Source: Haliotis asinina (Eukaryota > Mollusca > Gastropoda > Lepetellida > Haliotidae). Taken from it: DNA of 64,000 nucleotides. Every line of letters begins with the position of its first letter. Position 1 is the stretch's first letter. The DNA lies in the NCBI RefSeq assembly GCF_037392515.1, contig NC_090282.1, positions 56,320,843 to 56,384,842 of the forward strand, given 5' to 3'. Below the pieces are notes generated by a model. That model saw only the letters and a list, made by a program, of their open reading frames with translations. It ran no database searches and was not told the origin of the DNA. Both the position numbers and the translations under genes were made by a program. Shown one piece after another: positions 3 to 34,992 of this stretch.

Positions 3-3000
3 GGTGACAAAGGGATCTTGGAAGAAGGAGGGAAGATGAGGGAAGTACTAGCTGAAATTAAGGCAGCTCTAGCCAAACATTACCAAGTGGGCAAAATCTG
101 GGATTGTGTGGAGAAGACTTTGGATGAAGGTAATACAAGATTTAGGAACCACATATAAGTAAGAATGTCGCATTGCAAAGTGAATATGTACTGTAAATTG
201 ATGCAGAGACGACACTGACAACCACACTGCCAACATATCTGTTGGTTCCTTTGACAGAGGGTTCTCCGCATCCAAAAGCGAGAGGCGTCATGAACACCGT
301 CTTGTGTCTAGACACATCATCCAGTATTGGGGAAGAGGGGCTTGAGGACATGAAGCGTCACCTTGAAGTGTTCATTGATAGTAAGAAACGTATTGTTAAT
401 GTTGAAGGTGATGAGAATCTCTTCAGAAACATGATTGTCCATCGAGCAAAGCAGGAAGTCATTGTTAAAGTTACAAGTAACCTGTGCTCTGTTTAACGTA
501 TTTCAGATCGGGGAGTGCCGCAAATTTTATAAACACATCTCTAGCTAAGTCTCAGTGATCCACGTCCACCATACACCTGACATTCTGCTGACTGTAGAAA
601 CAAACACTCGTGTGTAGTTAACGTATTTTATAATGTGAAATAATGTGTCTTCGAACCAGACATAGAAGAATCTGCGGAGGATCTGGAACAGGAGGAAAAC
701 CTTGCTGTTGTCACATTTGGAGGTGGGGCCTCGATTCTGCATCCCATCTCGAACGATTATGGCAGTGTAAGAGATGTGATAGGTGAGGCGCCGTGGTCAG
801 TGGTAAGAAACGTATTGAAACTGAAGGAAGGTAATTATGTGTAACCTTTACAACATAAAACATTTAAAATTATGCAATGGAAAGTACTTACGTTATCACA
901 TTGATGCATATATGCAAACCACACTCCTGCAGTTAGCTCTGACTCTCTGCGCAGGAAACCTCTGTGAATATCTTTCTCGCCAAACATTTAAACAGCGTAT
1001 AGGCCTTGGGGAGACGTTTCACAGTATTTAGCAATACTTCGATCGTCATATGTCATATATAACATCTCCTGTTTCAGAGAAGATTGAGCTTGGTGGATCG
1101 TCTCCTCTACTTCAAGGACTGTTGGTCAGTGTTGCATCATTAGCTCTCGGTATGTCACATTGTATCAAAAGCACCATGCCTTATATCAGTGTAAGATTAC
1201 ACGTTTGAGGACATTGTTGATATTGATTAGTATTTCAGACCATGTTGTTGTTTTGGGTTACAAGGACAAGGTGGTAGTGGTTCGGAGATATCTCAACTCT
1301 CGCGGATCATTGTTATGACAGATGGTCTTGTGACAGGAGAAAGAACTGCTTCTGATACTGACACAAAAACCACATGGTTGTCCCAACAGGTACGTACACT
1401 CTTTAGTACACTACACAGACTTACCGATAGTAACGGATTTGTCTGTTTGACGCATTCAGCCTATTCTACCTATTTGGCGGCTTTCCATAAATAATCGTGT
1501 CTGGTCCAGACAGTCTTATGGTAACTCATGACAAACTACATTATGCCGACTTATATGTCTCAATTAGAAATAAAGTCATTCATCAATATTCCAGCTATAT
1601 GGCGGCGGTCCAAAAATATTCGAATCTAGACCAGACAATCTTTTGGTAACTGATGACAAACTACATTATGGCGACTTTAAGATGACACCCTATATGTCTA
1701 AATAAGAAATATAAAACAATTTCTTTAGGACAAGAACTGTCTTCTGTCGACACTGAGGATCTTAAGACCGAAAGAGACGACATGCGAGGTGATGGGTGCC
1801 ATGGTGTGGATCCCTGTGGGAGATGCCAACTCGGTAATGAGTGTTTTTTTACTTTGTCCCTCAACAGTTCATAATCGAAAATTACATAATGCTCACTGTT
1901 TGTGTCATAAATGAAAACGTGTTATGTGTGTGGTGTGTTTACTTGACAGACATTTCTACAAGACGTGGTCAGTTGGTCAAATGGGAATCTTTTGAACGGA
2001 ACGGAAATCAAGAGTCTATGTCGCCATCAGGAACCTAAGGTAAATTATCATGATTTCGTGAGTGAAAGAGGTGCAGCAGAGATAGTGTGTGACACCAGCA
2101 GTGCCGCATCAACGGTTTCTTGTTTATGCACTTGGCTATTCAAGAATGTTTTGCCTTCCCAAATTTGTACGGTAGAGGACCTAATTTCTGATCTTCTTTG
2201 ACATATATACACAAGGAACTTACTTAAGCATAACCTGTATTTTTGCAATGATAGGTTTCTAACACCTTCATAAAACGTCTCGTGGCGACAACGATGAAAG
2301 TAACATTGACAGTAACATTAGTTTATTCGTAATATCAACCTCAGAAGCCTATAAAACAGTCACAAGGTTTGGCAGTTTCGTGAAAATAACATTCTTTTGA
2401 CCCGTATGATACTTTGACTCACGAAAAACGACAAAATAATTGGAATCCATGTTCATTTTCATTTATCCATGATCATTGCTCATTTAAAAAAACAACAAAT
2501 CACTCATTTTCAAATAAAGTCACGTCTGTTCAAAAATGGCACTTGAATGTTTAATGTTTAATTTATTGGTGAACGTGAGCATTCAAAATGTAATTTTGCG
2601 TGTCTTACACGATTCAAATCGATAGCGAGTGCATCCTCCACTGTATGGCAGCCAGCAATCTCCCCGCATACCCCTTGCCAGCCTCCTGATCCTCTGAAAG
2701 GGCACACTACGCCATTCGTGGCGTTAAGCAGCTTCCATTTTGGCCAGATTCTGTACCGGGGGATTCTTCTGTTGCAAACGACGACCAATCATGTCCCTTA
2801 TGTGCTCCAAAGGCTTAAGTTCGGGTCTCATTCAAACGTGAGATATGTCAGGAGGTGCTTAATTAAGTTCCGTGTGTATGGTCGGAGAAGTATTCTGTGT
2901 GGAAATATTTATCAAGACCTATGTAACTGAAGCAAGAAAACAATTGTCAGCATGGCGGATGTTGGATTGTTTCTGTAATTACAGAGAGATCCAGGGAGCA

Positions 3001-6000
3001 GTGCGCCATCAGTGTCGTCACTAGGAGGAGCAGACCATACAGAAAGAACGCCAGATATCACCGTGGTATGTGGCATGCCGATCTGGTTTAGTCGACGTAC
3101 ACTTTACCCATGTAATTTTAATAAAGGTTGGTTGGCTGGTTGGTTGGTTGGTTGGTTGGTTGGTTGGTTGGTTAACGCAGCAGCAATCTTCCTGCTATAT
3201 GGAGACGGTATAGTGATCACAACCGATCTAGGCAAATAGGATGCGGTGACATGAGTCAACCAAGTCTATGATTCTGACCATGGGATCCCGCTAGTCGCTA
3301 CATTTACAACAAGCCTGGGTAACTGAAGAAGAAGATTTTGATATTTACTACAAGGATGTTATCTGTCCTCACACAGCGTGTCAACAAAGCATGAAGTCAG
3401 TCAATACCTTACTGACTCCCTTTTTGGATCGAGGGTAAATATAAAAAGTCAAGTCAAACAATCGATTAGTCGACATTGTTCGACGACATAGATTTCACTA
3501 TATATAAAAGGTCAAATAGCCGTAAAAATGACTTGCATGAATTACAGGAAAAACAACAACAATGATACTGGGCGTTCGAAAATGGTAAAGCGTACCCTAC
3601 CCTACAGGTAGTGACCTGAGGCGAGTAAAATTCTATTCGGGTCACTAAATCTCCACAGTCAGTGGCCCGGCTGGCTTGCTAATTTTCATTTTTTGTAAAT
3701 ACACTCTTTAAAAAACCGCAAAACCCAGATATCAATGAACATTTGGTGTTATTCAAGGACGTGTAGATCAGCGGAATGAATTAAATTTTGTGGAGCAAAG
3801 CATTGCTATCTTGTCCATATTTTACGAGCACAACGGTCATCACAGGCACTACAGTGGTGTTGAAATCAGTACCTCGTATGACCACCTCCAACTGCTATCA
3901 CTGCCGTACACTTCCTGGGTACAGATCAAATAAGTCGTTGGATGCTTTGTTGTGGATTCCTCCTGCAGCATGTGGAACAACTGTTGAGGATTCTGTGATG
4001 GATTCCGACGTCGACGTACCCGTCTATCGATCTGACCCCAAAGGTATTCGATTGGGTTTAGATCCGGGGATCTGGAGGGCCAGATGAAGGTACTGATGTT
4101 GCTTCTGGCCAGGTAGTCCACGATGGCACGTGCTATGTGGGGCCTGGTGTTGTCCTGTTGGAAGAGCTGCTGTTGACGGTCAACAAGGTGGAGTATCGAT
4201 TGGCACTCAGATTGCCTTGGACAAGCACAAGTTCCATCTGCGGGTGTATGAGATCGCTCCCAACACCATAACACTTTCTTCACCGAATTTGTCCACATGT
4301 CTGATGCAGTTAAGAGCAAAACGGCCATGACGTCTGTAGGTACGGTCTCTACCATCACGTCGCCTGAGGAGATAACGGGATTCATCGCTAAACTATATGC
4401 GCCATTGTTTGCCTAATTCCATAGCAGAACCGTGTTACACCATCTCACTCGTCGACGCCGATGTAGTCGTGTCAAGGCGGGTCAACTTTTCAACCTGTTC
4501 TTGTGCTGTGTCCCGGGCGGTACGATGGCGGTCACGTAGGTGGGTTACCCGGATGTACCGATCTTGGGCAGGTGTGGTGACTCTACGTCTTCCTGATCTT
4601 GGACGGTCATTTGTCGAATTTGTTTGACGAAATCGAACCCACAATCGAGTTATTGTGCTAGGATCAACGATGAAGATGCTTGACACCTCACTCTTTGATT
4701 CGCCAGCTTGCAATCGTCCAATTTCCTCATTTCGATCTGCAGAGTTGAGACAACCCATTTTCGTGTACAATACTTGCAAAGATCGATGAAATTGTGACAT
4801 TCATTTGGGTCTTTTATAGTCACATGCTGTACTCATGTTTTGCACGTGAGAAACAATCATTGTGCCTGATATTCGTGCTGCGTGACATCCACGCACATCA
4901 TGACAATCCTGATTGATAAAACCGTTCAAAATCATTTTTGGTTGCGTTTGGTCAAGCATGATCTTCTAAAACATTCCAGAAACAATGAGCCAACCTTAAA
5001 AATGTTTGAGTTTACATATATGTACAAAACTGTAAGTATCATTTTTGAATTTCATCTTGCGTTTATTTGTTTTGACTTTTTGAAGAGTGTATATCACTCT
5101 TATCACTCTTTCTGAATGTTGGGTTATGATACATTTTTACATCATGCAAGATTATATCATGATTCATCACATTAGCTACTGATTGATGAATTATTTACTT
5201 TATCTGAGCACGAACAAAATATTTCTAAAATGGCATTTTCCTATCTGTTTTATGGTATTACATCTGTTGTTATCGTTTGCTTAGGTTTTTAATGGTATTT
5301 CATATTTTGTGCTCTTTTGCTTAGTTTCTGCATTCATATATAGGATAGCCAGTTGTTTTGTGGGCAAGTTATTTTAAGGTATACAGTGTGTTGTGACTTG
5401 ACAGGTACCGCAGCAAGACACATCTACACGTTCGGATGGAAGGGGTGTAGAGAACAAGGACATCCCGAGCCCCGCTCCCCACCAAGACATTCAGGTAAAT
5501 AGATTAGGAGTAATTATGGAATTATGGGCCAGGAATACTGTACATGTATAAGCCATACCGAATGTTGCTTAGATGTAGTAATTTACATTGTATCATAAAT
5601 CTCCATGGCAGAACGATACTGGGAACAGCTCTCCACCTTTTCCTTCTTTGAGGCGAGAACTGCGAGCTGGGGAAACATTAGACGTCAGTGCAGCTGAAAC
5701 GGTATGTGTGTCCAACAGTGCACCACCCCCAGTGACTGAGTGAGTTTAGTTTTACGTCGCACTTAGCAATATTCCTGCTATGGGGCATCCGTCTGTAAAT
5801 AATTGAGTCAATCCAGACAATTCGGTGATCAACAGCATGAGTATCGATCTACGCAACGGGGATACGTAGACGTGTCAGCTGCTTCAGCGAGCCTGGCCAC
5901 CTAATCCCTTTAGTCGCCTCTTACAGCAGGCATGGGTTTCGAAAGACTAAATGTAGCCCGGATCTTCACGTGTTACAATACACCCAGAGTGTACTGCTTC

Positions 6001-9000
6001 AAGACGGTTGTTAATGTATGTTTGCACACTGATACTACGCTTCACATAGTTCATTCCAGCTGGCCCAAGCGATCTTCTTTTAATTCCGTTTAAGTGTGAG
6101 CCATCTGCGTTTGAATAGGTATTAAATATGGAAATATACGTCAGGGCATACGTGCATTCGAAGGGTAAGGGTGGAGTAATACTTTCCCTATTACATGTCC
6201 ATGACATAAGGATCCTGGAAACAGTATGTCACCTGTGTCGTCATTTGAAAGAAGACGAAGTACAGAGAGAACATCAGATCCCAAAGAGATGGACAAGGTA
6301 TGTGCTCCTTGTTTTACTGTATGGAGACTGAGCATATGCCCATTATTGTTTGCAGCAAAGGCCAAGACTATATATAGCTACATTGTTACTAGAATATGAA
6401 ATCAAACTTAGTTTAACCACACGGACCACACCGGTATGTATCATTCCCTTGGCCCCACTCCACAGAGCGATCGTAACCTGGACTCGCGACAGTCGCAGCG
6501 CGACGGTCACTTTGTGAAATGGGCCCCTGTACATCAAGATGTGGCTACATGGAACTGAAAACGGGCTACCAACTTTAGTTAGTTATATGCATGTAGATCG
6601 TAACATGCATTTCGTGTGAAATATACCGCAAGTGACAAGAAGCAAAAACAATTCGGTATATCAGTTCGTTGCAAGTGTGTTCATTGAAATAAACGTCCTT
6701 ATTTGTGTTTATTTATTGTCTTAATGTTCATTTCACATTCTGGATTGGCTGCAGATACAATATTGAAATGTCTATTTAGTATGGGTCCACTAGTAGTCGG
6801 GACGTCGGTGGACGGAGGGGTGACCGCAAGGCAACTGACGTGTTTGACAATGTCTACGAGTCAGAGGGTCTACCCATCCTTGGATCACGAGTGATGAGGG
6901 GCGTGGACTGGAAGTGGGATGACCAGGACATGGAGGGTCCTGGCACTATCACCAACCATGGAGCAGAAGGAAGTGAGTGAGTGATTGTGTGAGTCTAGTT
7001 TTACGCCGCACTCAGCAATATTCCAGCTATATGGCGGCGGTCTGTAAATAATCGAGTCTGGACCAGACAATCCAGTGATCAACAACATGGGCATCGATCT
7101 GCGCAGTTGGGAACCGATGACATGTGTCAACCAAGTCAGCGAGCCTGAATACCCGATCCCGATGGTCACTTCTTACGACAAGCATAGTCGCTTTTTATGG
7201 CAAGCATGGGTTGATGAAGACCTATTCTACCCCGGGACCTTCACGGGTCCAGAAGGAACTGAGACATTTAAGACATAAAAGTCATGTTACAAGGAATTTT
7301 CAATATCCCCGTTAAGAAACCCAACTTACCCTTAGAACTAAATTAGGATCCCCGCTCTTCTGTAGAAAAACGAGGTTAACGTCCCTTTGCAAAAAGGAAT
7401 CGTTAATACAATGTCCGCTTCTCTTTTCATAATATGCCGGCCATTAAGTGGACATTAGCATTAAGATCAATTTATCGTCATGTGTTTGTAAAGGAGACGA
7501 TATATAGTGAAACCTACGAACACTGATACTTGTCTAATCCAGCACACTGTCAAAACCGGCTCAAAAAGTGTGGTCCAGCCAGTTTACAACGCTATTATGG
7601 AAACAGTGCTGTAATCCGTCACAAGTCTATGCCGTTTTCCGACCCGACTTTCCTGTCCTAACAAGCAGTTTTAAGTGCAGTTAACACTATCTAAACCGGC
7701 ATGGCCATGAACAGTCCAATCAAGGACCCATGATGTCAATAACATTGGTTTTATTGACTCGTCAGTCACTTTCTGTGTCATGATGGCTAGACCATCTAAG
7801 AAGGCATGTTTAGAATTAACACTTGTTAAACAAATTCTGCTGACTTTGATACTCTTCCTCGGCCCTCTCCAAAAGTTAAATATCAAACTGGCAGGAAAAC
7901 TGTTTCGAACAATTGGGAAAAGAAAAGCGTGAAGCTTATCGATACAAATTTGAAGAAAACCATAATTCACAGACAAAACGGGTGTTGTTGGAAAATTATG
8001 GTCACTGTCTAATCCGGCAGCCTGCCTAAACCACTTATTTCGCCCTCGTGGGGTGCCGGTTCAGACAGCTTTCACTGTAATGTATCTTCCTGAAGGTAGC
8101 TGGAGAGTTGACTTACTCTATTCTACTTTGTAGAGTCCGTGTGGGTTGCCTGGGATCATGGCGAGTGCAACCGGTACAGGTATGGCCTAGGCGGACACTT
8201 TGACCTGAAGATTGTAGACGACCAACCAAGATCCCCAAGAAGAGACGGACGGATTCAGATCGGAATGCTGGTTGAAAGAGGTACCGTTTAAAGTGTTTTT
8301 GTCCATGATACAATAACAGATTATTCTTTTTTCTGGATCAGGACTTAAGTATCAAACGAGGTGTTCACTGGTATTTATTCACTGAGAAAATGTACGACGA
8401 ATAAACACGACAAATGTCTTCCACATCCATCCATCGATCGTACCTTTTCGACTCACGTGGGTATATGTGCATGAATAACGATGTTACCAGAGTGAATATT
8501 CCTTGTCCAGTCAACGATAAACACAGTTGGGGGTAGTCAGTAGTTCCCAAGGAAATGTATGGTGCAAGCCAAACTGGGACATTACTCAAACTTGCACATT
8601 CCAAATGTGAACGAGAGCCTTAGAATTCTCTCTCTCTCTCTGCCTTAACGATGAATTATCGAGCAGCTTCTGATCAGGACTCATATGAGGTTCTTCTAAA
8701 TGTTGATAAATGGAGCATGCCCCATTGTACCTTAAATTGCTGGAGCCGCAGGACATGATCGTCATAACGGGGACATTAACTATACTGGACAAAATAAGTT
8801 AAGGATATTGGTATATTTATGATTGATAATTTATCAGTGTGTCAATGAATAAATAGGTCATTATTCATAATTTCAGAATTTGAATATACACCTAACTATT
8901 TTTGTTCAGTATATTTGAAAGTTATTCCTCTTATCACTCGTAATAGTGAGATGTAGCTATGACACAGATAAGGCGATCTAATCGCTCTCCCCTATATATC

Positions 9001-12000
9001 TCAGGTTGGTAAATCAGTGGTAGGGAACGATATCAGACTATCGATGTACTGGACGCTTTACTACATTTCTTAAACCAAACTACTTCGTTTTGAATTTGCC
9101 AATGCGAGCAGAAATCCTCTGAAGATATTTAACTTTGTCAACGTTCACCTCTTTTAGTGGGAAATGCTAGTATATCAAAGGGGAAACATTGTTTGACTTT
9201 GCAAAACTGCAAGAATAATGTATTTTTGAGAATGTGCATGAGTTAATTCCATTACAAAGTCCCTCCTTGATAGTGCTGATGTCAAAAAATGACTGTTCCA
9301 TGTCGGACATACCATCAGGCGCAGACTGGCAAAAGACCGACGACGATGGCGGACCCAGCAGCAGCGGGACAGTGATTAGACGACAGTCAGACAGAGTGAT
9401 GGTGAGATATCCTTTGTCACCAGCAGTATCAACATTCTAAAGGCTCTTAGGACAAAATATATTTGCTCAAAGGCAGGTGTTATTGCTACACAACGAAGAC
9501 ACAGAAACTTTTACCGGCGCGAATGAAATTTTATTACATTGAAAGGTAAATGTTTCAAGGTATGGTAACGATCTAATGTCCATAACAGCAGCGTACCAGA
9601 CATATGCAGATGAGCCACAACACATGTACATGAGGACTTCAGACTGTCAGTAGAGAGAGTGTTCTCCTTGTGCGCTGATGCAGATCTGGCTCGTTCACTT
9701 CACTAAGGTCTCGCATAAGGCTGATGAAGAGTCCTAGGTACTGTCATTCCATATTCGAGGTAGGACTTAGAGTTCCTGCAGTACTGTTTGAGGATTCTCA
9801 AATTCTCTCTCCATTTCAACCCAAATGCGTTCATAGTGTTACGAATCGGGAACCAGGGAATCATTTTAACTTTAACTCGACCAATGTTTGGTATGGCGTG
9901 ATTGTTTTAAAATCTCACACCAGGTGCGATCTTTAGCGAAATCAGTAAAGTGAAAATTTGCAAAATAACCAAACCACACAGCAATTAAAGTTCCCTTCTA
10001 TCACAATCATACAAATGCCTGATGTAACCGTTACTCCTCGCCCAGTCATCAGTGAAGATAATTGTCCATTGCAAGTGCTGTCTGCTTCACATCGACAGTG
10101 TTCTGAACTAAGCACTGTCCGTCGGACTGTGAGTCTAGCTAGCATGCTGGTTGGGACTTTTAAGAAGTGTCTTGTCGTGGGTCGCTACTGGTTGGCGGCA
10201 CTATGGGGACAGTCCATAACTTGGCTGTCTGGGTTAAAAACGTGGCCTTCCGTGCCAAATGGTGTTCCTATGCATGCTAAGGTACCCGATCGAAGGAAAC
10301 ATGCAAACGTGTGGGATGTAAAATCAATCCCAGAACGGTGAATAGAGGTGCTTTTCTGACTTTTATGAGTCTTACGACTGCACTGGGTGCAAATGTGTCC
10401 CGAATATGTCATGCTTCTGAAACATTTCTACCTGTTGGACCACTGCTTGCATGCCTTTCCTTCGACCATTTAAACACGCGTGTTCTAACCCAAAATAAAT
10501 TCACATGACTACCAAAGAAAACATTCCATGTCACAATAACTTCTGCCTCTGGGTATATGTGAGCAGATGTGGAATGATTCTTGCAATTACATCATTAGTT
10601 TACTGTTGCACAAGGTAAAACGTTTGTCTCACTGTATGCAGGTGAAATGGAAAACGGGAAAGATTGGTGTATATAGATACGGACAAGGTGGCAAGTTTGA
10701 TGTCTGTGTTCGGTGAGTAGTATTTCTGGTTACATATACTCAAATGAACAGTCATAATTTCAGGATTGCACTGGTATGTGTCTGACATTCCTACACTTGT
10801 CATTTAATTTGGCAGAGATCCTGTTTCTTGTTTGATGGAACAAACAAAAAAGCAAAAGAGTTTCCAGCATGACCAACAGCCCACTGCACTAACAGGTTAG
10901 TGAAAACGTGCACATTTTGTTTAAGATGTTAAAAGAGTTATCCTTCGTTGTATACTGTGAAACTCTCACCAAACAATAGCTACGGGTCAGATCATACTTC
11001 CGGGTCACAGAAAATCTCAGAGGAGATAACTGTGACAAATGGCCTTTCAGAATACACGGGGAAACAGGTTTTCATACTTCTGAGGATTAGTTAAATGTTT
11101 AGAATAATGCATTTGCATGCACACATTTCCGAGTCACGTGGTAACTTTAATATTCAATACAGCCGGAGTACCGAAGCCTAAAGAGGCAAGTGCCAGATAT
11201 AAGGAAAGCAGTGTCTGGCAGTGGCTGGATGGAGATGGTGTATGGACGACGTATTCTGAAGAAAATAGTGTCCAACTCAGCAGAGCATATGACAATCAAG
11301 AGGGACACTGTGTTATTGAAAAGGACGGTAAAAGGTAGGGAGTTACGCTTAAACCTCTGTTTTTTATTGTGTACCCGAGGTTTGCAGGTTACTACCTTCA
11401 GTTGTCATCATTTTTTCTGTCTAATAACGTTTTCTTCTATTGCTAGCGACAGAGAAGGTGCCAATATTGTGATGACCCACTCTGATTGATTATATGTAGA
11501 TCATATACCATAACCACTATTTTGGATAATGTGGTTATCAATCTGTGCCTGTTGTTGTGTTGTTTTTTCGGTGTTTTTCGTTTGTTTTGGTTTTGTTTTT
11601 TAACGCTTACTAATGATTCTTTTATGTAGTATCATGGTCAGTCTGTGTCTGTTCGTTTCAGATTCCTGGTTTTATTCCAAAACCTTGTAGAGAAATCACT
11701 GACAGACAGATGCACAAGGAAGGTGCGAAAATGGCCAATTGGTAAGAGAAGATAGTCAATCTTACTGTACATCGAGGAAGTGATATACTATAGAAATTAT
11801 TGAAAATAATATCAGTCAGTGAGTTCTATGGTCATTTATTGGTTTAGTTGTTATTAAGATTCGCATTTTCATAAGAGAAAACAATTTACAGAGAGAATAA
11901 CAATGTTGAAATGATTGTTTTTGTAGGGGTTATATCAACGTTAAAATAGCATATGCAAGTGGGTGGTTCAATGTTGAAATGACATTGAGTTCTGGTTGAA

Positions 12001-13292: not shown

Positions 13293-13339
<47 letters not shown>

Positions 13340-14494: not shown

Positions 14495-15802
14495 CGAGGA
14501 GGGTTCAATACGTTTTGCAACTTCGATATAAAAAAGACTTACATGACCAATTTTTTACTTTAATTTTTCAATATAACATCCCTTCATCTCAAGGCACTTA
14601 TTCCATTTTTCTTTAAGGCTTTTGATACCACTTTTGTAGAAGTCTTCAGGTTGCCCCACTAACCAAGCCTCTGTGGCAGCTTTGACATCTTCGTCATCCC
14701 GGAATTGCCTTCCATGTAAGACAGATTTCAGGTTCCTGAATACGAAGTAGTCGCTGGGGGTTGGGTCTGGGCTGTAGGCTAGGTGACTTAACTGTTCGAA
14801 TCCACATTCACGTATTGCAGCCTGAGCTACTCGAGACTTGTGAACTTTGGCATTGTCGTGCAAAAGCAGAATATCACGTGACAACACCACGTGACAACAT
14901 TCCACGACGTTTCTGACGAATGGATTTTCAGTTCTTGCATTAAGTTGGCATAATATTGACCATTCAATCTAGTTTTGTGTGGCAAGCAATCAGTTGATAA
15001 TATGCCTTTGGCATCCCAAAAGATACTGGCCATAACCTTGCCGGCAGATGGTTGAGTGCGAAACTTCTATTGAGGTGGAGAACTGGGGTGCTTCCACTGC
15101 AACGATTTCAGTTTAGTTTCACGGTCCCAGTGGTGGATCCATGTTTCGTCACCGGTCACCAGACAAGAAAGAAATCTAGCTTCATCTGCATTGTAGAGAT
15201 CAAGGAGCTCCGTACAACTTTGCGTTCTTTGATGGCGATCTTGAGCGCTGAGGTTTCTGGGTACCCATCTTGCAGACACTTTGCACATTCCAAGATGATC
15301 ATGAATTATCTTTTCAACACTCCCAACCGTTATCTGGAATTCCAAAGACAGTTCTGACACTTTCACTCGCCGGTCTGCTAAAATTCCCTTTTCTATAGCG
15401 GCGATAACTTCAGGTTGGGTGACCTCTGAGGGCCTGTCTGACCGTGGTTCATCGTCTAGCGACTTCCTGCCCTGCTTAAACTGGAGAGACCAGCGACAAA
15501 CTGTGGAAAAGCTGGGAGCATCCTCACCCATCACAATACACATGCGATTATGTATTTCTGTAGCTTTGCATCCTTCCTTTGTAACGAACTTTTCCATAGC
15601 GCGTTGCTCATGTTTAAGGGAATCCATGATTGTGGAGACCCTTGCGGTCAATAGAGCAATTATATCTAAATTATTGTTGTGTCTAGGAATTGTTAATATA
15701 TGTGTCAACATTATGGTTTGACTAAGGTAACACCTGCTAAGAGCTGACACTGTAGATGTAAACACAAATGGCCAGCTTGCAAAACTTATTGAACGCCCCT
15801 CG
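14495..15802 (-). mobile_element. Mariner DD34D transposon, broken
   Basis: A 1308-bp element lies between TA duplications (14493-14494, 15803-15804). Its inverted repeats are about 27 bp (CGAGGAGGGTTCAATACG and, on the other strand, CGAGGGGCGTTCAATAAG). On the minus strand 15067-15765 holds the N-terminal part: a helix-turn-helix, then HDHLGMCKVSARWVPRNLS and VTGDETWIHHWD with the first catalytic Asp. The rest follows in two other frames at 14827-15033 and 14555-14905, with LLHDNAKVHKS and YSPDPTPSDYF giving the 34-residue Asp-Asp spacing. At least two frame breaks make it inactive. Length and ends are otherwise complete. Confidence 0.9.
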
Positions 15803-15804
15803 TA

Positions 15805-16534
15805 TAATCCATACTCCAGGTGCGACTACTAGTAACTAGCTGCAGAATCGACTCGAGCTGCAACGTTATAACACCCTAGTCGTATCAGTTTTGACAAGCT
15901 CTCAAACAGTTAAAAGTGACACGAGGGAAATATCAGCTTCTCTGTTTCGTGTGATTTGACCAATTAGTTCTCTCCCTTTGTCTTTTCCCATTCTAGATAT
16001 AAATGGAATTTATTTGAATCCATTCTCAGTGAAATCAAGAGTGAGAGGGTCTTTTTCTTCCAGTTCCTGTAAAAGGGAATGATAGGCGGTTTTCCTCTTT
16101 TCATTTGCAAAAACATTCAGCAATTACCGCCAGCGTCTCCTTGTATTGCTCATAAAAGACGAGATTATCGCGAGATTCCAAGTCGCATCAGCTTTCTTCT
16201 ATGTATACTACATGTAGATATAACAGGTTCTTTCTACAAGTCGGACCTTATATGACATTAACCCCTATTCGGTCATCGGATAAAACTCTTGAAAGCATTG
16301 GTTGTACATGGGAAGAGAAATACATCAATAAAATACCTTCTCAAAGCAATTTAATTATTGACATTGATATCATTATCATATTCAATAGATGTATTAGTAG
16401 AACACAGGATACAATGGAAAGATATGACGTCAAGTTTCTTCCTTAAAATTCACTGTGTGTGCGGATTGTTTAATAGCAGGCTATTCTCTCGTTGACTCTT
16501 ACTTATCTGAAAACATTTTGTCACATCGAATATA
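15805..16534. other. Intergenic, no feature seen
   Basis: Between two transposons. The 81-residue plus ORF at 16201-16446 has no family resemblance that I recognise and is compositionally unremarkable. Confidence 0.4.
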
Positions 16535-16536
16535 TA

Positions 16537-23670: not shown

Positions 23671-23696
23671 AAACCTTGGCAGAATCTTCTATTATA

Positions 23697-23741
23697 CTCT
23701 CTCTGTCGCTCTCTCTCTCTCTCGATCGATCGATCGATCGC
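23697..23741. repeat. CT then GATC microsatellites
   Basis: A CT run is followed by about five CGAT units. Confidence 0.9.

Positions 23742-24123: not shown

Positions 24124-24125
<2 letters not shown>

Positions 24126-24157
<32 letters not shown>
24126..24157. repeat. AGT trinucleotide microsatellite
   Basis: About ten AGT units, some 95 bp upstream of the first recognised exon of the second vWA/WWE gene. Confidence 0.95.
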
Positions 24158-24251
24158 TTCAAAGAAACTGTCTGCCATTTGTTATCAAGATGAGTGTATT
24201 TCAACAGCCACTTGAGACGAACATCAAGAGACAAAAGTGAATGACCACGCC

Positions 24252-26025
24252 ATGGACAGGTTGGTTAAAGAGAGAGAGAATTCCAGGAAGAGAACAAAAA
24301 CATGGGATGGTACCAAGACATTAGTATTTCGTGAGGTTGACGATGCCGGGCATGTAACACTGGAACAGGGTACGGAGGTAGTCGACATCACACTCAGTCA
24401 CCATGCACTACATCAGACTGGTTCATCTCAGGGTATGTATTTCAAATCTACAACAAGCCAGTATAATATAGTTCAATAACAATATATTTAAATGGTAAGC
24501 ATGCGCTCTTTCATATCCTTATACGTGCATGCATACCTGTTCACATACACACAAAAAAAACAAAAAACACACACACATACATACATACATACATACATAC
24601 ATACATACATACATACATACATACATACATACATACATACATACATACATACATACATACATACATACATACATAGACCATCCCTCCCTCTTTCACACAT
24701 GCATGCTTAATATGCATTCACTCTATGGCTCATTAAGAATATATTATTTCAGACTTCCAAGAATTGATCCGGCTGACATGGGACAGTGTTGATCCCAGAT
24801 CTTGTCTTCGATCGTCTTATGAAACCGTTCACAGTGATCAGAACCTACTCGAGACGATCGTCCACTGTCTTTGTGAAAACAATTTCAGCACTCTCCGCAA
24901 ACTATGTCTCACATTTTACAATGCATATACAACCAAGCTTACCTGCGTCACAATCAACCCTCTGACCTTCACCTTCCTTCATCAGAGAGGGCAAGGTACT
25001 GAAGAAATGAGACACCTCGGACCAAAGCTGGCAAAGGTTTTGAAAAACCAACTTTCCGGAAGCCTCCCTGAAACCGATGATGTGAAGCTGAACCTACAGT
25101 TCTGTAGTGACGACTCTGAGTCAAGACAGCATCGCCTCCAGATACCAGGAGGTCATTGTCTAAGTATTACCCTGTCCATTTCATATGTGTTTGGGCATGA
25201 AATGTTCAAAATGTTTTCCTTTTTCAGCTCTATGTTTGTGAGCTGTTTGTTCTTCTAATAATTTTGGGTTTTTTTTCAGAAAGTGAAACAGAAACACGTG
25301 TTTCACAGATAGAGAAACAGATCGAGTCACTCCGATGTATGTTTGAGGACCAGAGAATCCTATTTGAAAGAATGCTTAATTCTCCATCACTTTCCACTGG
25401 TCCCGTATTCAGGCAATGTGAAGAAAATCGGGAACATGTTGCCGGTCGAATATCCTCCAGTGAAGGGGCATCTGAGCAATGCGCGAAGGCGGCACAAGGT
25501 AAAGGGTTCACACAGGAGACTCTTTCTGTCACCTTTCCAGAAACTGTTACAGCAGCAACAACGTCAGTTGCTGAGTTTCGACAAGTTAATCAAGTGACAG
25601 GGATAACGGGCTCCTGCCCGAATATAGACAACACAGAGGGTACCTCAGAGGAGACGACGGTACCAAAACATGTCCTAGACCCTAATCACACTGTGGACAA
25701 AGCAGGTGTCACACAACCATCTAGTTTTGGGTACGTATTATTAAACATCAATATTATCGTGTTTAAATAAAACAGGCTGTCATATTATCAGCACAATATA
25801 CATATCACTGCTTGATATTAATGGGTTCTTTTATAAGACTGTCATCGACCGATGGATTTGGTGGCGTTCCGGGATTTTCAGACGTAAAACGTATGCAAGT
25901 TATCGAGCGAAGACCGTCACTTGGTCAAGATCAACCATCTTCCTCCACATCAGCAGGAAATGCCACATCTAAGCAAAGTTTTAACTACCAAGGAAGGAAA
26001 ACAAAAAACAGCAGTTGGATGAAAG
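24252..26025 (+). CDS. N-terminal region of the second vWA/WWE gene
   Basis: Exon 24252-24432 encodes a basic start (MDRLVKERENSRKRTK) and LVFREVDDAG. Exon 24753-25151 encodes about 132 residues that look globular and helical (LLETIVHCLCENNFSTL, HLGPKLAKVLKNQL, DDVKLNLQFC); I do not recognise the fold. Its donor (GTCATTG) is weak but phase fits. Exon 25280-25730 starts with a coiled-coil-like heptad run (ETRVSQIEKQIESLR) and then becomes Ser/Thr-rich. Exon 25838-26025 is also disordered. The equivalent part of the first gene is outside the window apart from its last 42 residues, which differ. Confidence 0.65.
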
Positions 26026-26595
26026 GTAGGGGTCATACTATCGACTAGTCTCACATACTTGTAGAATATGGTAGTTGAACGATAATGAAGACGTTGTGCG
26101 TTGTAGACAACCTTCACTTGTCTGTGTTAAAAATAACAATATCGTTTTGGTATACATCCAGTGGATCCAGCGCCACCTAAGGCAACAGGTATGGATACTG
26201 TCCTGTGTCTCGATGCATCCTCAAGTATGGGATCAGATGGATTTCAAGAAATGAAGAAGATCGCTTGTAGTTTCATTGACGGTAATAATTGTTATAAGTA
26301 CAGTTCCAGTTAAGAAGCAGAAACCCTCATTTTGATGATATCATTATTTTGGGGTGATAAAAATGTTGCATACTCATTTGAAAGGCAGCTTATTAGCCTA
26401 TTTCACCTTCTACTGGGCTGTGATGTTTCGCTTAAGCATGTCTGGACAACAGTTTCTCCATTCTCCTCGATACATACAGTACAAGTATGTTTTATACATA
26501 CTCCGCTAAGGAATACACATAGGTGCAAGTAACTTGTACAGTGTTCTTTTGCAACATTCCAATAGAAAAGCATTATACTCTGAAAATGGTTCACC

Positions 26596-26632
<37 letters not shown>

Positions 26633-29600
26633 TGTGTGTATGTAAGTATGTACATATCTTTGTATGTGTGTTACGTATGTATGCATACCTCTACGTGTTC
26701 AGTTAACGTAAAATGTATACAATCGTATGTTTATAACGTTTTCATTTATTTAGTTTTGTTTGTCTCTCATATCCTGTAGGGTGGTTTCCGTACTTAACTT
26801 CACCAAAATGTTAGTATTACATTACAATGTACAGAAAGTAAGAGTTAAAAAAGCATCTCTCCCTCCCTAAAATGACAAACTGAACTTCGCTGTTGCAGGA
26901 CTTGAAGACATCACATCCAAGTATGAGATAGAGGAGAATGTTGCCGTGGTAGCATTTGGGGGACCACCCCGGATTGAACACCACCTCAGCAATGACTACG
27001 GGAGTGTAATAACTGCCATCGGTATGTAGAGGAATGTCTTCATTTATACACGTTTCTCACTGACTGATTGGGATTTGCATTAGAACAAATCTTGAGTTTA
27101 TGGTCTATGCCAGTTTACAGATTTCATTAACGCCCCAAACATATAACTTTCACGAGGAATAGGAACTTCGTGAATAAAAATGTTGGTGCTGTGCTTCCCA
27201 ATGAAGATACGTCAGACCAAGTGTTTTACATACAGGTGCTGTTACAATAACTCAGGCTTCGGTGCGTTTATCGCTATCTTTGTTAACAATGTTTGACCAG
27301 TAAAACACAATAGTTCTGTATTTTTCAGGAAACATTTCATTTGGAGGTAGATCGCCGCTTTTTCATGCACTCCAAGAATGTCTTCATGCGCTGAATAGAC
27401 GAGGTAAGAACTTTGTTCAAAGATGTGACTTCGATTTCCCAACTCATCATGTCGGCACCATATGCGTCGTCTTTGGATCATTGCCTCTTTAGCGCTTCTA
27501 CAATGTTGAAGGGATACCGATTTGGTGTTGAGTAACTGACTCTCTTTGACGGAAATTACAATGTTCTTTACCTGTGAATTTCTTGCAGGGTCCACCCTTA
27601 GTATCTCCAACGTTCATCGCATCCCACCACGTATCATCATCATTACCGATGGGAAGGCGTCTGTTGATGGAGATGTTGGAATCGATGCAGAAACTATCGA
27701 CGACAACGTACGTCAATACTTCAAAGCTTCAATGTTATCAAGAGCTATTGAATACTAGCTCTGTCTGAGATGAAGATTAACTTCATATCTTAACTATTTA
27801 GTATCCTCATACTCATTTTGAATCATCAGAACTATTATTATTATGTTTTACAGATTAAGATAGATATGCAGCAGAGGGGGTTCGGAAGTTCCTGGCACAG
27901 TCAGGCCGCTAAGGCTCATCATCAGCTCACGGCCCTCGCCCCCTTTTACACGCAGCCCAGACAACGAATGGGACTTCTCCCAGGAAACACTGCCTAATCG
28001 AACCCACCAAGAACTTTTCGGAGAATATGGAGGCTGTCCAACACTGCAGCCTTCTGCATTACCCAGATTGTCAGAAGGGCTGTGCTCCCGGTGGAGAACC
28101 TGGGCACTCTCCTGATCTGCGCCAAGAGATTAGGAGGCACCAAACCAAAGACACCGAGAACAATGGGAAGCTTGATGACAGTGTACTTGGGATGCAGGCG
28201 AGACATTTCAAATGTGAGGTCAGCATATTTATCATGCTTTTCCTGAATCTTGCCAATCACGTTGCTGTCAAAAGGGACACAAAATTCAATGATATAAATT
28301 ATATCAAAGCTACAGGCATGGCGGACACAATTGTAAGAGCAATTAGCCATGCCATCATGTATTTTAAGATATGCTGTTTGTGCCAAGGAAGGGCATCCAC
28401 TTACAAGGTGTTAACCAGTCTCTGTACATTCATTGCATAATCGACATTTAATGTTATTTTGATTAATCACATTTTGACGATTGCGAGTGGAAAGTGACTG
28501 GTCCTGGGCAGCAAAAAGGAAACCAGCAGACTTCATCCAGGCAAAGGAGTCGCTTGGATTGCCGTTCTGTTCCACACACTGCATGTTTTCATGATGCAGT
28601 GGCTTCTCAGACAGCTTCTCCACAAAGGACCGACTCTGGTCAGATTTGGTGAAGGACTTCACTTGGTTTACTCCCATGGCTGTTCCGTTTGTCGCAATTT
28701 GTCGCAATCCACAAAATCAACTTCAAATTTCAAATTGTGTCCAACAATCTTGGCACGCTTAAAATAGCTGTGGAATCCCTTGCTTCCATCATGAGCCTTG
28801 ACATGCATCACCAGAGGATCAAATAAATATGTGCAAATGTGCACAATAAAATTCTGCCATGAAGAGCCTCCACATTGATCAAACCCCGACCTCCAGAATT
28901 GATTGGCATATATAAGCGATTAAGAGAGGAACGAGGGTGAGGTGCTCTGTTATCAAACATGATCCTTCTAGTCAGGCGGTCAAGACTGTGGATGTCTTGT
29001 TTTGTCCAATCAACTACTCCAAATTAATAGGAGAGGACTGGCACAGCCAAAGTATTGGTGGTTTTGACCTTGTTTCGAGCATTTAGCTCTGAACTCCAGA
29101 TTTTCTGTAAACGTGATTTATACTCGGCCCGAAGTTTATCTTGAATCTGGGCATTCTGGAGCTTGTCTCGAACTTGCATTCCAAGATAGGTACAGGCCTG
29201 ATCTTCCGCAAGATGCTCAATAACTCCTCTCCTTTGTAACCTGACTGATCCATCATTAGCTACCTTGCCACGTTTCAAATGGAGAGCATTACACTTGTCG
29301 AGTCCAAATGTGATGCCAATATAAAGGACTCGACGTCATCCATGCATAGGAGATGAGTAAGAAGTGTTGGGGATCTGTGCTGAGGAGGTCCGGGATAGTA
29401 ACCCCTGTCCGTTCCCCCTCCCCCTGCCAAATCAATCAATCAATCTATCTATCAGTGTCACAGTGGCATGACCGTATACGTAGCGAAGTGTTGAGGTGGG
29501 GAAAGGCCTCATGAAACCAAATGCAAATAAATACTATTCACGTTTACTCACATATGATCTTCACACGTCATGTGCCTTTATGTATCAGATTCTCGTTGAT

Positions 29601-32600
29601 TTTCATTACCGTAATCATCATTGCAGGTGAAGTTGAACGTCATTCAAATGATGAAAGGATTTCAGGATTCGTCCGAACTTCCAAGACCTGTTGCATGGAT
29701 TCCTGCAGGCAATGCCAACTTGGTAAGAAGTAGCAGGAAGAATGATGGCCAAACCTTGGCATGAATGCAACCGTCTTAAAACTGACCACAAAATGCTTCT
29801 TTTCAAGAAAACACATCAACACCATCACGATGAGCATACAATAGTCGCTAAAATATATATCCAATGCTGCTGTAAGTACGTGAAAAACTTATTCAAATGT
29901 ATGTGCTCATATGCATACAAATAGACTTATGTAGGAAACTGAAAATACACTTTAGATACACGTTAATGTTTTGCATTGTAGGAGTTCATCAAGTCACTTG
30001 CGAAACTGGCAGGTGGTATATATGTTTCTGGCAATGACGTCACACGCTTGTGCACATACCAAAGGGTTCAGGTATATATATTCTACAGATATATCATTTT
30101 AGAAGCGAATAGAATCAGAAAACATTTTAAAATATACCAGTAGGCCCTAAATAATGTATTCCCTGTTTTAATGATTACATATTTTTCTAACCAATAAGAC
30201 ATCCCAGATAGTTACTATCATAAAGAAATGTTCCAATTGCAAATGGTATTTTTAACTGTTTCAGTTATTTCATATTTTGAACCCACGAATTCAATTATAC
30301 ACAATGATACGGTGGTGTGCAGAAAGTTCTGGTTTTGCCAAAGTCGAGTGTACGCTTTACCTGTTTCCTGTCGTAGGTAACCGTCGGCAAGATATTTGTG
30401 TGTGTGCAGAACAACATTGGATGCAGTGGCTCAGGAAACGAGACCGACATCAATGAGATACTGAACATCTTTGCTGGGGATTTGGATCCCGAAGATAGGG
30501 TTAGTAGCGTATCAAATGGGATAGACAGGGAGACACATAATCTTGACACGTATTTTTATCATGTATTTTTACAGTTGTTGCACAATATGCACAATAATGC
30601 TATGGATGTCATGTTTTTGAAAGTGTGTCCGGCTCAAGAATGAAATAATTACCCGTTCATTTATGCTAACAAATAGGAAACGTGAAAGGACACTATGAAA
30701 AAATGCTCATGTACGTCTGTGATTGTTCAGTAGCCCGCAGGTTTCAACTGACATAGCATGTGTATTGTCTGTCTTAAAATTATGAAGAATCTGGTTGTGT
30801 TGAGTCAGAGACGTGTCCCACATCCACAGAACATGTCACAAGTCGACTTAAGACTTACATGAATGTGTAAGATTTTCTTTCATCACAGCAAACATCACAC
30901 CAAGCGACACTGGAAACATCATTCATCCTTTGTACCATGTAGGGAATAGAAACTGAGTCTTCGGAGACTAGTAAACTTCATAAACAGTCCCGCACATTTC
31001 CAAATGTGATAGAATTGTTACATTAATTAAATATGAATGTTATTTTTCACACATCAGTGCATCATTGCTCTCAGTATCATCATAAGTATGTTTATATCCT
31101 CATAACTCCTATTTTACAGGAAGAAGTAATTAATACGGTAAAGCTCAAGCTTGAAGGAAACCCAGAGGTTAGGCGCGAAAGCAAAGGCCCAGCAGATTTC
31201 GACAACGTCATTGAACGTGACGATCCCGTACTGCCTAGGCTTGGAACCAGGGTTGTAAGGGGGCGCGACTGGAAATGGGACAACCAAGACACTGACGGGG
31301 CTGGGACAGTTATCAACCACACAAACGACCCAAGGAACCTTTGTAAGTTTTTTTAATTAGACCACCGCTAGTATCAGTGTTTGACGTCTTTTATTGATGT
31401 CTGTGTCGGATATGGTTACTGTATGTTTCAGATTGGATTTGGGTGCACTGGGACAATGGCACTTACAATAAGTACAGATATGGAACTGATGGGGCATTTG
31501 ATGTGAAAATCGTCGAATGTCAGCCGAGGACAACTGAATCTTTGATTGACATTGGCTGTGAAGTTCAGAGAGGTACAAATATCATTTATATGCAAATTCT
31601 ATCGGCTAAAATGACTTAAGATGATATTCAAATTATTGCTATTTAATGTTTCAGCAGAATATGTCAAATATGTCAAAAGTCAAGTACTACGAGTCTTTAC
31701 ACTTTAGTGTTTTTTATACGAAAACCTTTCTGATAAGATGAATTATGTCATTAAATTGTTTTATTTCTAGGATCGGACTGGCATGATGACTGTGGGGATC
31801 AAGATGGAGGTCCTGGGGGTGTTGGCGTTGTCATCAGGGTGAACGATAACGGAATGGTTAAGGTACATAAATTAGGAACATCGTCTGCACTGGATGAGAT
31901 AACCGCTCACCACATTCCCAGTCTGCCCCCCAGTTCCATACGACCACTATTGTACCTTTGCTAAAGGCCGCCGACGTAAGAGAATTCACCACATCTTATT
32001 CAGGCCATTCAGTTTATTTCACATATAATTTCATCTGTTTCCTTTTTAACGTACGGTGGGGCAGCCTAATATACTTAGAATAAAAAGTTAAGCGGCATCC
32101 AGTATATTTACCTGATATGGGGTGTCTGAAAAAAAAACCCAAGTATCATAATTTGGTTTAATAATGTCCAGTTTAAGAACAAAACCATAACTGGAATTAT
32201 CTTTTACTATAAACAGGATGTATGCGCATTTGGAAAACACTTTGTTACCTTATTTTGAAAAGTTAAAATTAAAAAATGTCACATGATTGTATCCGAGGAT
32301 AAGAATAGTTATTTTGCATTAAAAAGCAGTACCATAGTATCTTTAACAATATTTCCATCAGTTGTAAGAACAGTGAATGAGTTTAGTTTTACGTCGCACG
32401 CAACAATGTTCCAGGTATATGGCGGCGGTCTGTGCAATTGTGATTATTATAATATCCTTATGTCAGTTAATAGATGAACTTGCTCTAAATATGGATTGGT
32501 CTTCCCAATTATTGTAGCCTAACATTTCCGCAGCATCACATCTTGAAGCTTAACTTTTTTTATTCCCGGTATAGCTATAGCGTCTGCTGAAGATCCCACA

Positions 32601-34992
32601 TGAGTCCTTTTCTTGTGTCTCCATTCGTGATATTGCTAAAAACGTGACAAAACAATACCCACTCGCTCATTTTTCATAACAGAATTTGTGACAGAATAAT
32701 ATACTTTCTGTGAAAAAATTCTAAAATGTAAAATACTACTTCGATTTGCTTTGTCATCCTTTGTTTTCATTAGTTGGCCAGCTCCACGTGCTATCATCAA
32801 AACTGTGAGGATAGCAAAAGATCCAGCCAGTTTGGCGTATAAATATGTTACAATGAAACTCATTGTCGCAAGTTGCTTAGTATATCTGTTAGCATGTGCA
32901 AAAATAGTATGAAGGACGCACTAAAATGCGTTCAGTGGAGCAGTCTGTTCTGACTTTACTTATAGGAACGTCAGCGTATTATGTTAAAACAATCCCTGGT
33001 CAGGAGAGTATGCACGCCGGCTGTTCCGTACAAAAATGACAAATCAGATGTATAAGTAAGTCTACTTTTAAAACATTTCTTCGAGTATATCAGTACACGA
33101 TCGTCAGCAGGGTGCAACGATAGATGTGTAGACTGTTTTAGCATTGGATGTTCTTTACACACTATCAGGTACGCTGGAAACTGACTCACCAGATCAAAGA
33201 ATACAGATATGGATATGATGGGAAAATGGACCTGGTCTTGAGGTAAAGCTTATTAATTAAAACGTTCATAATTTAGGTATCTACCTTTGTCAAATGCCAA
33301 TTGTTTGCCTATATAATTGAAAACAATTACTTTAACTTGGACAAATGTTGCAGAGATCCGGTCGATATTGTGAGGGAGTACACAAAAGTTGATGACTCTC
33401 CTGGTACTGATGCGTCAAAAGACAAAGGTAGAACAATTGGAAGGTATCAAAATGATAAACATATGAAGTGGGGTGAACTGGAGTTTGACTAGAATTTGAT
33501 ATTAATTCACCCATTTATAAGGGTTTGCATCCACATGTCCACGTGACAAAAGGCAAGAAAGCAAGTTTCCATCCTTCGTCATTTTGTATGGCATGAGCAC
33601 GAACCAAATCGTTGACGTACTCCTAACCCGATAGACGTATGTTATACTGGAGGCACAGTAGTAGCAATGGGGTACATAGTATTGGTCACAGAGACTACAT
33701 GACAAGAAGGTGATCGGATCTGGGACATACAGTCCAGCGGTTGGTGATATGAAGGAAAATCTGCACAGAGCTAGGTCTGTAAGATGATCAGATGAATGGT
33801 AGGATTTCCAATCACAAAGGACTTTGTAGGTTTTAGAATAAACTTTATGCCCAGCTCTTGATTGTACATATATGAACTCCAAAAATATTGACTTAACTAT
33901 TTGGCAGACCCTGTTTATGCAAGGATCGGCAATTTTTTGTTTGGTCCCAGAACTACCGAAGCACTGTCAAGGAGCAGCAAAAAACTATTAGTTTTTGGTA
34001 CTACGGTAGCAGCTGTCAGAGGATCCACGCGCAAGGGATACATGACACACACCATGTGAATCCATGAGCATGAGCTGTGATTACCAGCTACGTGACTTGT
34101 CTCCGCTCCTCAAAAGATTTTGTGATGCACTCGTCAAGGATATATGTTACTAATAACACCTCTGACGGCTTGTTCTTTGGTCAAATGTACACACTTCTGC
34201 AATATTCTCTAATCTTCCCTTGGCACCCATGAAAACACTATTTTGGAATCCGAGACGGAGCCTGGGTGTGATCGTATCGCTCGGATTTGATAAGTCTTTG
34301 TACGCAATAGTGTCTGTGATAATTTCAACAGATTCACAAATTTATAATTTGACGGATTACCTATTCATTGGTGATCATTAGCAAACTTTCAGCATCATAA
34401 GTATGTATACCTTCAAAAGTTTCAAACCACAAAAAGTTCATGGTAAATTATCCTCTCATCATGTATGCTGTTTGCAAAGAATTAAAGAAAAAATGTTGGA
34501 TGTGGTTAATATAGTTATATTGCAGAATATTTACAGAGTACGGTTTAATTACTAAACCCAGAAAACAATAATGGAGAAATACATGGCAGTTTATGTTTTG
34601 AACAGCTTACCCTACTCAAACTCAGTGGGTGTGGCTGTGGAAAGATGAAGCTGGACACTGGCTGCACTACAGTGACGAAGATGAGAAGAGACTGGAGCAG
34701 ATCTACAGTAAACGTCCAAATGGTTCCTGTCTTCTTAGAATCAACGGCATACAGTTAGTATTTATTTCATTCAAACATAACTAGTTTGTCTAGATTCCAA
34801 AACAAACTAAGACTACAATGATTTAGTATGCAGAAATGGTGTTGGAACCTATCATGGCTATTGTTGACTTAACTTCAAAGGATCTTTCTTTTCTTCTGCT
34901 TCAGGTACAGGGTGCTTTTCAAGGAGTGGAAACAACGGCGATTGGAGGACAATGTCAGAATGGATGTTCAAAGAAGAGCACTGGATCAATGA
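24252..34992 (+). CDS. vWA - MIB/HERC2 x2 - WWE protein, paralogue
   Basis: Eighteen exons join in one phase: 24252-24432, 24753-25151, 25280-25730, 25838-26025, 26162-26281, 26899-27021, 27329-27403, 27589-27707, 29627-29722, 29982-30071, 30377-30499, 31120-31342, 31432-31572, 31771-31862, 33169-33242, 33354-33427, 34606-34753, 34905-34992. They encode about 934 residues. Order: an unknown N-terminal domain, a short coiled coil, a disordered Ser/Thr region, vWA (LCLDASSSMG, IIIITDGKA), two MIB/HERC2 domains and a WWE domain with a stop after ALDQ. The start ATG at 24252 is the first in this frame after a stop at about 24213; an upstream exon cannot be ruled out. It is a tandem paralogue of the gene at 3-13392. 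No RING or HECT is present; ubiquitin or ADP-ribose signalling is inferred. Confidence 0.85.
24573..24676. repeat. CATA tetranucleotide microsatellite
   Basis: About 24 CATA units. Lies in the intron before exon 24753-25151. Confidence 0.97.
26162..30071 (+). CDS. vWA-domain exons of the second vWA/WWE gene
   Basis: Exons 26162-26281, 26899-27021, 27329-27403, 27589-27707, 29627-29722 and 29982-30071. Marks: LCLDASSSMG (metal site), VAVVAFGG, GGRSPLFHALQ, RIIIITDGKA, AWIPAGNANL and AGGIYVSGND. The last two fit the final strand and helix of a vWA fold. A LINE of about 1.5 kb splits the intron before 29627 without touching coding sequence. Confidence 0.82.
26597..26640. repeat. TG dinucleotide microsatellite
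   Basis: About 17 TG units, then a degenerate TATGT region. Intronic. Confidence 0.95.
27855..29430 (-). mobile_element. 5'-truncated LINE with restriction-like endonuclease end
   Basis: On the minus strand the fragment runs from a degenerate reverse transcriptase active site (LLCMDD, about 29370) through KYLG-like CTYLGMQVRDKLQ, NARNKVKTTNTLAVPVLSY, VDWTKQDIHSLDRLTRRIM and GGRGLINVEALHGRIL. A zinc-finger-like KCRLCNECTETG and an endonuclease-like tail follow (IEFCVPFDSNVIGKIQEKHD, KLPIVLGVFGLVPPNLLAQI, LHILRKVLGGFD). This is the layout of non-LTR elements of the R2/NeSL-like group; the exact clade is not certain. There are several frame breaks. The 3' end (about 27855-27890) is only approximate because no tail repeat or target duplication was identified. 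Confidence 0.75.
31120..33242 (+). CDS. Two MIB/HERC2 domains of the second vWA/WWE gene
   Basis: Exons 31120-31342 and 31432-31572 give GTRVVRGRDWKWDNQD, WIWVHWDNGTYNKYRYG and FDVKIVE. Exons 31771-31862 and 33169-33242 give GSDWHDDCGDQDGGPGGVG, VRWKLTHQIKEYRYG and KMDLVL. Both repeats keep the QD-x-GGxG and YRYG hallmarks, so the second is better preserved here than in the first gene. Confidence 0.85.
32371..32440 (+). repeat. SINE tail fragment
   Basis: GAGTTTAGTTTTACGTCGCA, then AACAATGTTCCAGGTATATG and GGCGGCGGTCTGTG. Truncated after about 70 bp. Intronic. Confidence 0.7.
32441..33168. other. Intron, no feature seen
   Basis: Remainder of the intron inside the second MIB/HERC2 domain. 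No repeat or coding signal that I can support. Confidence 0.4.
33428..34605. other. Intron before the WWE exon, unassigned
   Basis: Contains a 126-codon minus ORF at 33502-33882 and open plus fragments over the same stretch. Neither matches a family that I recognise. The evenly mixed composition could mean an old transposon, but nothing diagnostic is visible. Confidence 0.35.
34606..34992 (+). CDS. WWE domain of the second vWA/WWE gene
   Basis: Exon 34606-34753 begins after the acceptor TTGAACAG and encodes QWVWLWKDEAGHWLHYSDED, RLEQIY and GSCLLRING. Exon 34905-34992 gives YRVLFKEWKQRRLED and VQRRALDQ with the stop at 34990-34992. The Trp-Trp-Glu pattern is complete, and the closing basic segment fits the family. 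Confidence 0.85.

Follow-up and report, generated by a model that had tools for sequence, protein, structure and literature searches.

An array of genes combining vWA, paired MIB/HERC2 and WWE domains on one contig of Haliotis asinina

Two genes in a 64,000-nucleotide stretch of the Haliotis asinina genome (contig NC_090282.1, here C3; the stretch C3:56320843-56384842 is the window) are part of an array that contains at least 23 WWE-bearing copies and occupies 448 kb of this contig from C3 55.908 to 56.355 Mb. Both genes encode a vWA domain, two MIB/HERC2 domains and a terminal WWE domain, in this order; such binding modules are usually found in enzymes of the ubiquitin and ADP-ribose systems. 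A search of the open-access literature, with most subscription papers outside it, returned no description of vWA, MIB, MIB and WWE in one protein, and no paper in which MIB_HERC2, WWE domain and von Willebrand occur together. The array thus gives an exon-level definition of a gene family whose domain order is undescribed in the literature searched, in animals whose large immune-like expansions are poorly understood.

Structure and Domain Content of the Two Genes

The model of gene 2 was built by hand, guided by open frames, splice sites and the resemblance of the copies to one another. The gene lies on the + strand (window 24252-34992) and comprises 18 exons that run from ATG to stop and form an intact frame of 915 amino acids, and in this hand-built spliced model 17 of 17 introns are GT-AG with consistent phases. 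The protein begins with an N domain and a coiled-coil-like linker, followed by the vWA domain, two adjacent MIB/HERC2 domains and the terminal WWE domain. Its stop codon falls at 34992, the coordinate at which a first-pass annotation of this DNA had placed the end. The features of gene 2 are:

24252..24432, + strand: first coding exon, with ATG (spliced model)
24753..25163, + strand: N-terminal family-domain exon, without known family (spliced model, Pfam and PDB searches)
25280..26025, + strand: coiled-coil-like linker, exons 25280-25705 and 25882-26025 (coiled coil judged by eye)
26162..30071, + strand: vWA, six exons, 26162-26281, 26899-27021, 27329-27403, 27589-27707, 29627-29722 and 29982-30071
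30377..30499, + strand: exon x7 (spliced model)
31120..31572, + strand: first MIB/HERC2, exons 31120-31342 and 31432-31572 (spliced model, Pfam)
31771..33242, + strand: second MIB/HERC2, exons 31771-31862 and 33169-33242 (spliced model, Pfam)
33354..33427, + strand: linker exon
34606..34992, + strand: WWE, exons 34606-34753 and 34905-34992, the latter with the stop (spliced model, Pfam)

The first exon shows similarity, itself weak, to one other copy alone (copy C, E 0.14); this exon and the coiled coil are put forward on weak evidence.

The core of gene 1 (+ strand, window 258-11755) comprises 13 exons from the vWA to the stop, which are in frame with GT-AG borders and encode 491 amino acids. 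The exons for its N-terminal part are outside the spliced core and upstream of the window (L009, from about 8335). The first-pass annotation had put both genes on one strand, which is the + strand, and had started gene 1 at position 3, which is the edge of the window. The features of gene 1 are:

3..129, + strand: probable helical exon before the vWA, left border approximate (open frame, donor seen)
258..2039, + strand: vWA, six exons, 258-380, 660-782, 1078-1149, 1265-1389, 1729-1833 and 1950-2039, the weakest border choice being the acceptor of the fourth (spliced frame, Pfam VWA_2)
6780..8280, + strand: first MIB/HERC2, exons 6780-6972 and 8134-8280 (spliced frame, Pfam)
9319..10712, + strand: second MIB/HERC2, exons 9319-9401 and 10642-10712 (spliced frame, Pfam)
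10816..10895, + strand: linker exon (spliced frame)
11163..11755, + strand: WWE, exons 11163-11334 and 11662-11755, the latter with the stop (spliced frame, Pfam)

The spliced product of gene 2 matched the Pfam profiles VWA_2 (9e-14), MIB_HERC2 (5.6e-26, in two stretches) and WWE (4.2e-10), and the gene 1 core matched the same three (1.1e-9; 4.8e-24, in two stretches; and 1.1e-10). All of these matches are above the Pfam curated cut-offs, with the WWE domains of the two genes scoring 40.3 and 42.2 bits against a cut-off of 21.1, and in both genes a stop lies directly past the WWE. The spliced frames and Pfam therefore confirm two same-strand genes with the order vWA, two MIB/HERC2 and WWE, as the first-pass annotation had proposed, and the profile search of spliced products that it set as a test found all three domains. 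Its statement that RING, HECT and PARP domains are absent also held: in the 915 residues of gene 2 and in the 491-residue core of gene 1, Pfam returned no family other than these three at E<=0.1, and hence no RING, HECT, PARP, ZZ or ankyrin match. The annotation had further described a common exon order and phase. Where gene 1 and gene 2 have exons in common, their intron phases are identical, as read from a listing of all splice sites with their phases, but gene 2 contains exon x7, which was not found in gene 1.

The MIDAS of a vWA domain binds its metal through a DxSxS motif, a Ser/Thr and an Asp. These residues are present in gene 1 (DTSSS, GGSSP, TDG) and in gene 2 (DASSS, GGRSP, TDG). Among nine copies compared by eye, DxSxS and the second-loop Ser are each found in eight and the Asp of TDG in all nine, so that the metal site is kept in 8/9 copies including both window genes, while copy D fails the first two marks. 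Compared with solved structures, the MIB domains are closest to MIB1 (4.6e-14) and then to HECTD1 (6.4e-10); among viral contigs, the MIB pair of gene 2 gave two pattern matches, none of them confirmed. Searches with eight exons of the N domain gave best E values of 0.026 in Pfam and 0.064 in a PDB profile search, both taken as chance, and the N-domain exon of gene 1 scanned alone had no Pfam match of note. An AlphaFold2 single-sequence model of the gene 2 N-domain exon had a mean pLDDT of 40.5 and a pTM of 0.32 and was unusable.

The window also contains the remains of mobile elements. A DDE_3 transposase ORF (19321-20331, - strand) and an ORF with a Mos1-type HTH (15067-15825, - strand) are Tc1/mariner-type remains, and further ORFs at 3849-4800 and 16728-17757 resemble such remains by eye. 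Downstream of gene 2, on the opposite strand, lies a 798-codon open frame (35744-38140, - strand); a scan of its first 405 residues gave C2H2 zinc-finger matches. An Rfam search gave no match.

The Array on C3

The two genes had been described as a tandem pair; instead they are members of the much larger array, which also bears out the suggestion of an expanded mollusc family. When all 1.14 Gb of the genome were searched for the family, 21 WWE matches fell on C3, between 55,907,821 and 56,355,468. This search missed copies B and D, and was therefore not exhaustive; adding these two gives the count of 23. Neighbouring DNA, named by the first-pass annotation as the place to look for more copies, contains seven (A to G) within 200 kb upstream, on both strands. 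Splice sites of the expected phase were found at the exon borders of copies A-G, which is a consistency check, as the expected phase alone was searched.

The exon cores of nine copies (gene 1, gene 2 and A-G) contain no stop codons and are 30-53% identical, with gene 2 nearest to copy F (53%). vWA exons v1-v4 occur in every one of the nine, as do the two exons of the first MIB; of the second MIB all nine have the second exon, and of the WWE the first. The complete set of six vWA, four MIB and two WWE exons was found in 5/9 cores (gene 1, gene 2, B, C and F), while the models of copies A, D, E and G miss at least one exon, although separate matches exist to v5 for G and to v6 for E. At the 14 WWE places beyond the nine copies both WWE exons are open in every case, and the second WWE exon was found in 22 of 23 copies, the exception being E. 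vWA and MIB exons were also seen at three of these further places (L029, L030, and L031 with L043), parts of which lie outside the stretches read, giving twelve copies with vWA, MIB and WWE exons.

Two stretches of the array are irregular. In cluster 75531-77822 (C3:56196373-56198664), a frameshifted WWE fragment (cluster 77428-77822) follows an N-domain-like exon at a distance of about 2 kb, with no vWA or MIB match between them, and we read this cluster as a degenerate or shortened version of the array family. At L023:4012-8512 (C3:56174854-56179354) there are 50.5 tandem 90-bp units, which include the 3′ end of the copy D MIB exon and its splice donor; this repeat array seems to have grown out of the coding exon of copy D.

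Genome-wide there are 31 MIB_HERC2 matches, and the six on C3 are all inside the array. None of the 25 elsewhere has a WWE match within 50 kb, the nearest being 71.7 kb away, and the eight of these loci that were read by eye, seven on C16 and one on C7, look like one-exon domains of the MIB1/2 type; the matches outside C3 were rejected as members of the array family. Within the reach of these searches, the C3 array seems to be the only place where the family occurs. C16 alone holds 17 of the 31 matches, several of them in pairs and those read MIB1/2-type in look, and may represent a separate MIB1/2-type expansion. The split of the array's vWA over six exons explains why a VWA_2 search of the genome, in which 150 of 212 candidates were scored, found none at 56 Mb of C3. 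Repeated domains of other kinds occur elsewhere: head-to-tail vWA repeats with near-equal scores at C1:64973184-64990299 (~1049-bp spacing) and C10:14380203-14392757 (~2037-bp spacing), and 16 hemocyanin-unit matches, as two tandem genes of eight units each, at C2:96255865-96318095, genes that in themselves point to a mollusc.

Relations Among Copies and Selection

A tree was built from 22 WWE domains of the array and three from other parts of the genome, with 200 bootstrap trees. Gene 1 belongs to a nine-member group (support 92/95, short of what the tool marks as strong) and gene 2 lies outside that group, although many forks of the tree are weak. We considered whether gene 2 is a recent duplicate of gene 1, and this is ruled out: the two are 39% identical, and were united in 0% of the bootstrap trees. 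Exon x7 was found in gene 2, C, F and G and weakly in L030 (E 0.011); no x7 was detected in gene 1, A, B, D, E or L029. This distribution fits two subfamilies only roughly, because E is also without x7.

Selection was estimated from WWE alignments of 42-65 codons, so the values are rough. In 3/4 pairs dN is well below dS: the WWE exons of L032/L038 (dN 0.147, dS 2.3) and L037/L040 (dN 0.245, dS 1.53), and the first WWE exon of E/L036 (dN 0.099, dS 0.5). The young pair F/L035 has a dN of 0.067 and a dS of 0.07 over 62 WWE codons, and since the two are about equal, new copies may be less constrained. We read the array as probably old, diverged and mostly under constraint.

The WWE Pocket

A highly conserved Gln of WWE domains is described as making a double hydrogen bond with adenine, and the proximal phosphate as bound by a Tyr and an Arg (PMC11269756). 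In the array, the adenine-reading column is Glu in 20/22 copies, and Gln is found in gene 2 and L040 only. Tyr is kept in 9/22 copies and Arg, at its usual spacing, in 5/22, and the full set of Tyr, Gln and Arg occurs in none of the 22; the columns that we take to be those of Tyr and Arg were assigned from spacing and the RNF146 numbering. Gene 2 keeps Tyr and Gln, whereas gene 1 keeps Arg alone. When solved WWE structures were aligned over the adenine column, Gln was present in 5/5 (DTX1 twice, TRIP12, HUWE1 and ZAP). As a control from the same genome, seven WWE domains read by eye at 6/8 control loci have five Gln and two Glu, and no WWE was readable at the other two (L044 and L051). Glu is thus found outside the array family too, yet within it Glu is the rule.

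A Cys is invariant in 22/22 array WWEs, and Lys/Arg and Ser often follow the Glu, recurrences that would suggest a selected role more than decay. With Glu-type and Gln-type pockets side by side, the array is a natural setting in which to test how much depends on the adenine-reading position of a WWE.

Proposed Function and Alternative Explanations

Since RING, HECT and PARP domains are absent, any transfer of ubiquitin or ADP-ribose must come from a partner, which points to a scaffold or adaptor. The reading that we favour, with a likelihood only slightly short of even, is an expanded family of non-catalytic multi-reader scaffolds that would bring targets to a partner enzyme, with defence or stress as the likeliest, though putative, setting. 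The N domain and linker would oligomerise the protein, and the vWA domain would grip a partner through its metal ion. The MIB pair is predicted to bind a target peptide, as the MIB pair of Mindbomb does, while the WWE, in most copies probably no longer a standard reader of ADP-ribose, would add a contact specific to each copy. Ubiquitin or ADP-ribose chemistry, if any, would be supplied by the partner enzyme, and the many diverged copies, mostly under constraint, may provide for a repertoire of targets.

The first-pass annotation had suggested an adaptor or a sensor, and either role would be deduced from domain content. As ADP-ribose or PAR sensors, the proteins would read ADP-ribosylated targets through the terminal WWE and recruit effectors with the remainder, like RNF146, Deltex or ZAP. 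The WWE matches above the cut-off fit such a role, as does gene 2, which keeps Tyr and Gln and whose WWE alone has ZAP as its closest solved structure (1.2e-6). However, the canonical contacts are mostly lost (Gln in 2/22 copies, with the counts for Tyr and Arg given above) and are never found together, and the array differs in this from the solved WWEs and from the other WWEs of the genome, where Gln is present in 5/5 and 5/7. A plain ADP-ribose sensor is therefore not supported, and we consider this explanation unlikely overall; it is disfavoured for most copies, with gene 2 probably the best remaining candidate. A different sensor can be imagined, in which the array would be an intracellular repertoire with a re-tooled WWE pocket. 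Most copies might then recognise a guanine nucleotide, a cyclic dinucleotide that contains guanine, or some other non-adenine ligand, and relay the signal by way of their vWA and MIB contacts. A change from Gln to Glu would favour the guanine edge over adenine, because the guanine edge offers two hydrogen-bond donors, but we regard this version as quite improbable.

The array proteins could also be decoys or inhibitors that compete for targets with the Mindbomb or Deltex ligases encoded in the same genome, Notch signalling being one possible setting. A Mindbomb-like MIB pair without a RING, in a genome with separate MIB1/2-type loci on C16, is what such a role predicts, but at least 23 diverged copies exceed the need of a decoy and the pair is without the ZZ finger of Mindbomb, which makes this role distinctly unlikely. 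There is very little chance that the array is mostly decaying or artefactual, that is, a satellite-like array of gene remnants with only some copies real genes. Individual copies do show damage: one WWE fragment is frameshifted, copy D has a broken MIDAS and a 50-unit repeat from its own exon, at least one exon is missing from the models of 4/9 cores, and the F/L035 values are near parity. Against general decay, the nine cores lack stops, both WWE exons are open at 14/14 further places, dN is well below dS in three of the four pairs and gene 2 has a full frame of 915 residues.

Comparison with Known Systems

Mindbomb proteins carry a ZZ finger between their MIB domains, together with ankyrin repeats and a RING. 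Two MIB/HERC2 domains are common to MIB1, MIB2 and the array proteins, and MIB1 is the closest solved sequence; the array proteins are without ZZ, ankyrin and RING, and add the vWA, the WWE and an N domain without known family. The single-MIB ligases HECTD1 (6.4e-10) and HERC2 also have MIB/HERC2 in common with the array proteins, which differ in having two MIB domains and no HECT. Among WWE proteins, the array family profile matches DTX1 (8.1e-10), TRIP12 (1.3e-4), HUWE1 (1.5e-4) and ZAP (0.0015). Compared with Deltex/DTX1, TRIP12, HUWE1, RNF146 and ZAP/ZC3HAV1, the array proteins have no catalytic domain, Glu in place of Gln in 20/22 copies and the Cys in 22/22.

Expanded mollusc genes of the Mib-herc2 type have been reported before. 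The 'Mib-herc2' orthogroup OG314 comprises 234 genes, with 15.1 per bivalve species and 0.4 per other mollusc (PMC8382680). The comparison with the array is by annotation only, and the present genome is that of a gastropod, a class in the low-count group of OG314 (PMC8382680); by its annotation, OG314 may or may not be the same family as the C3 array. Mollusc gene expansions are known, and so are the MIB/HERC2 and WWE domains; the domain combination and the WWE pocket type we rate as new.
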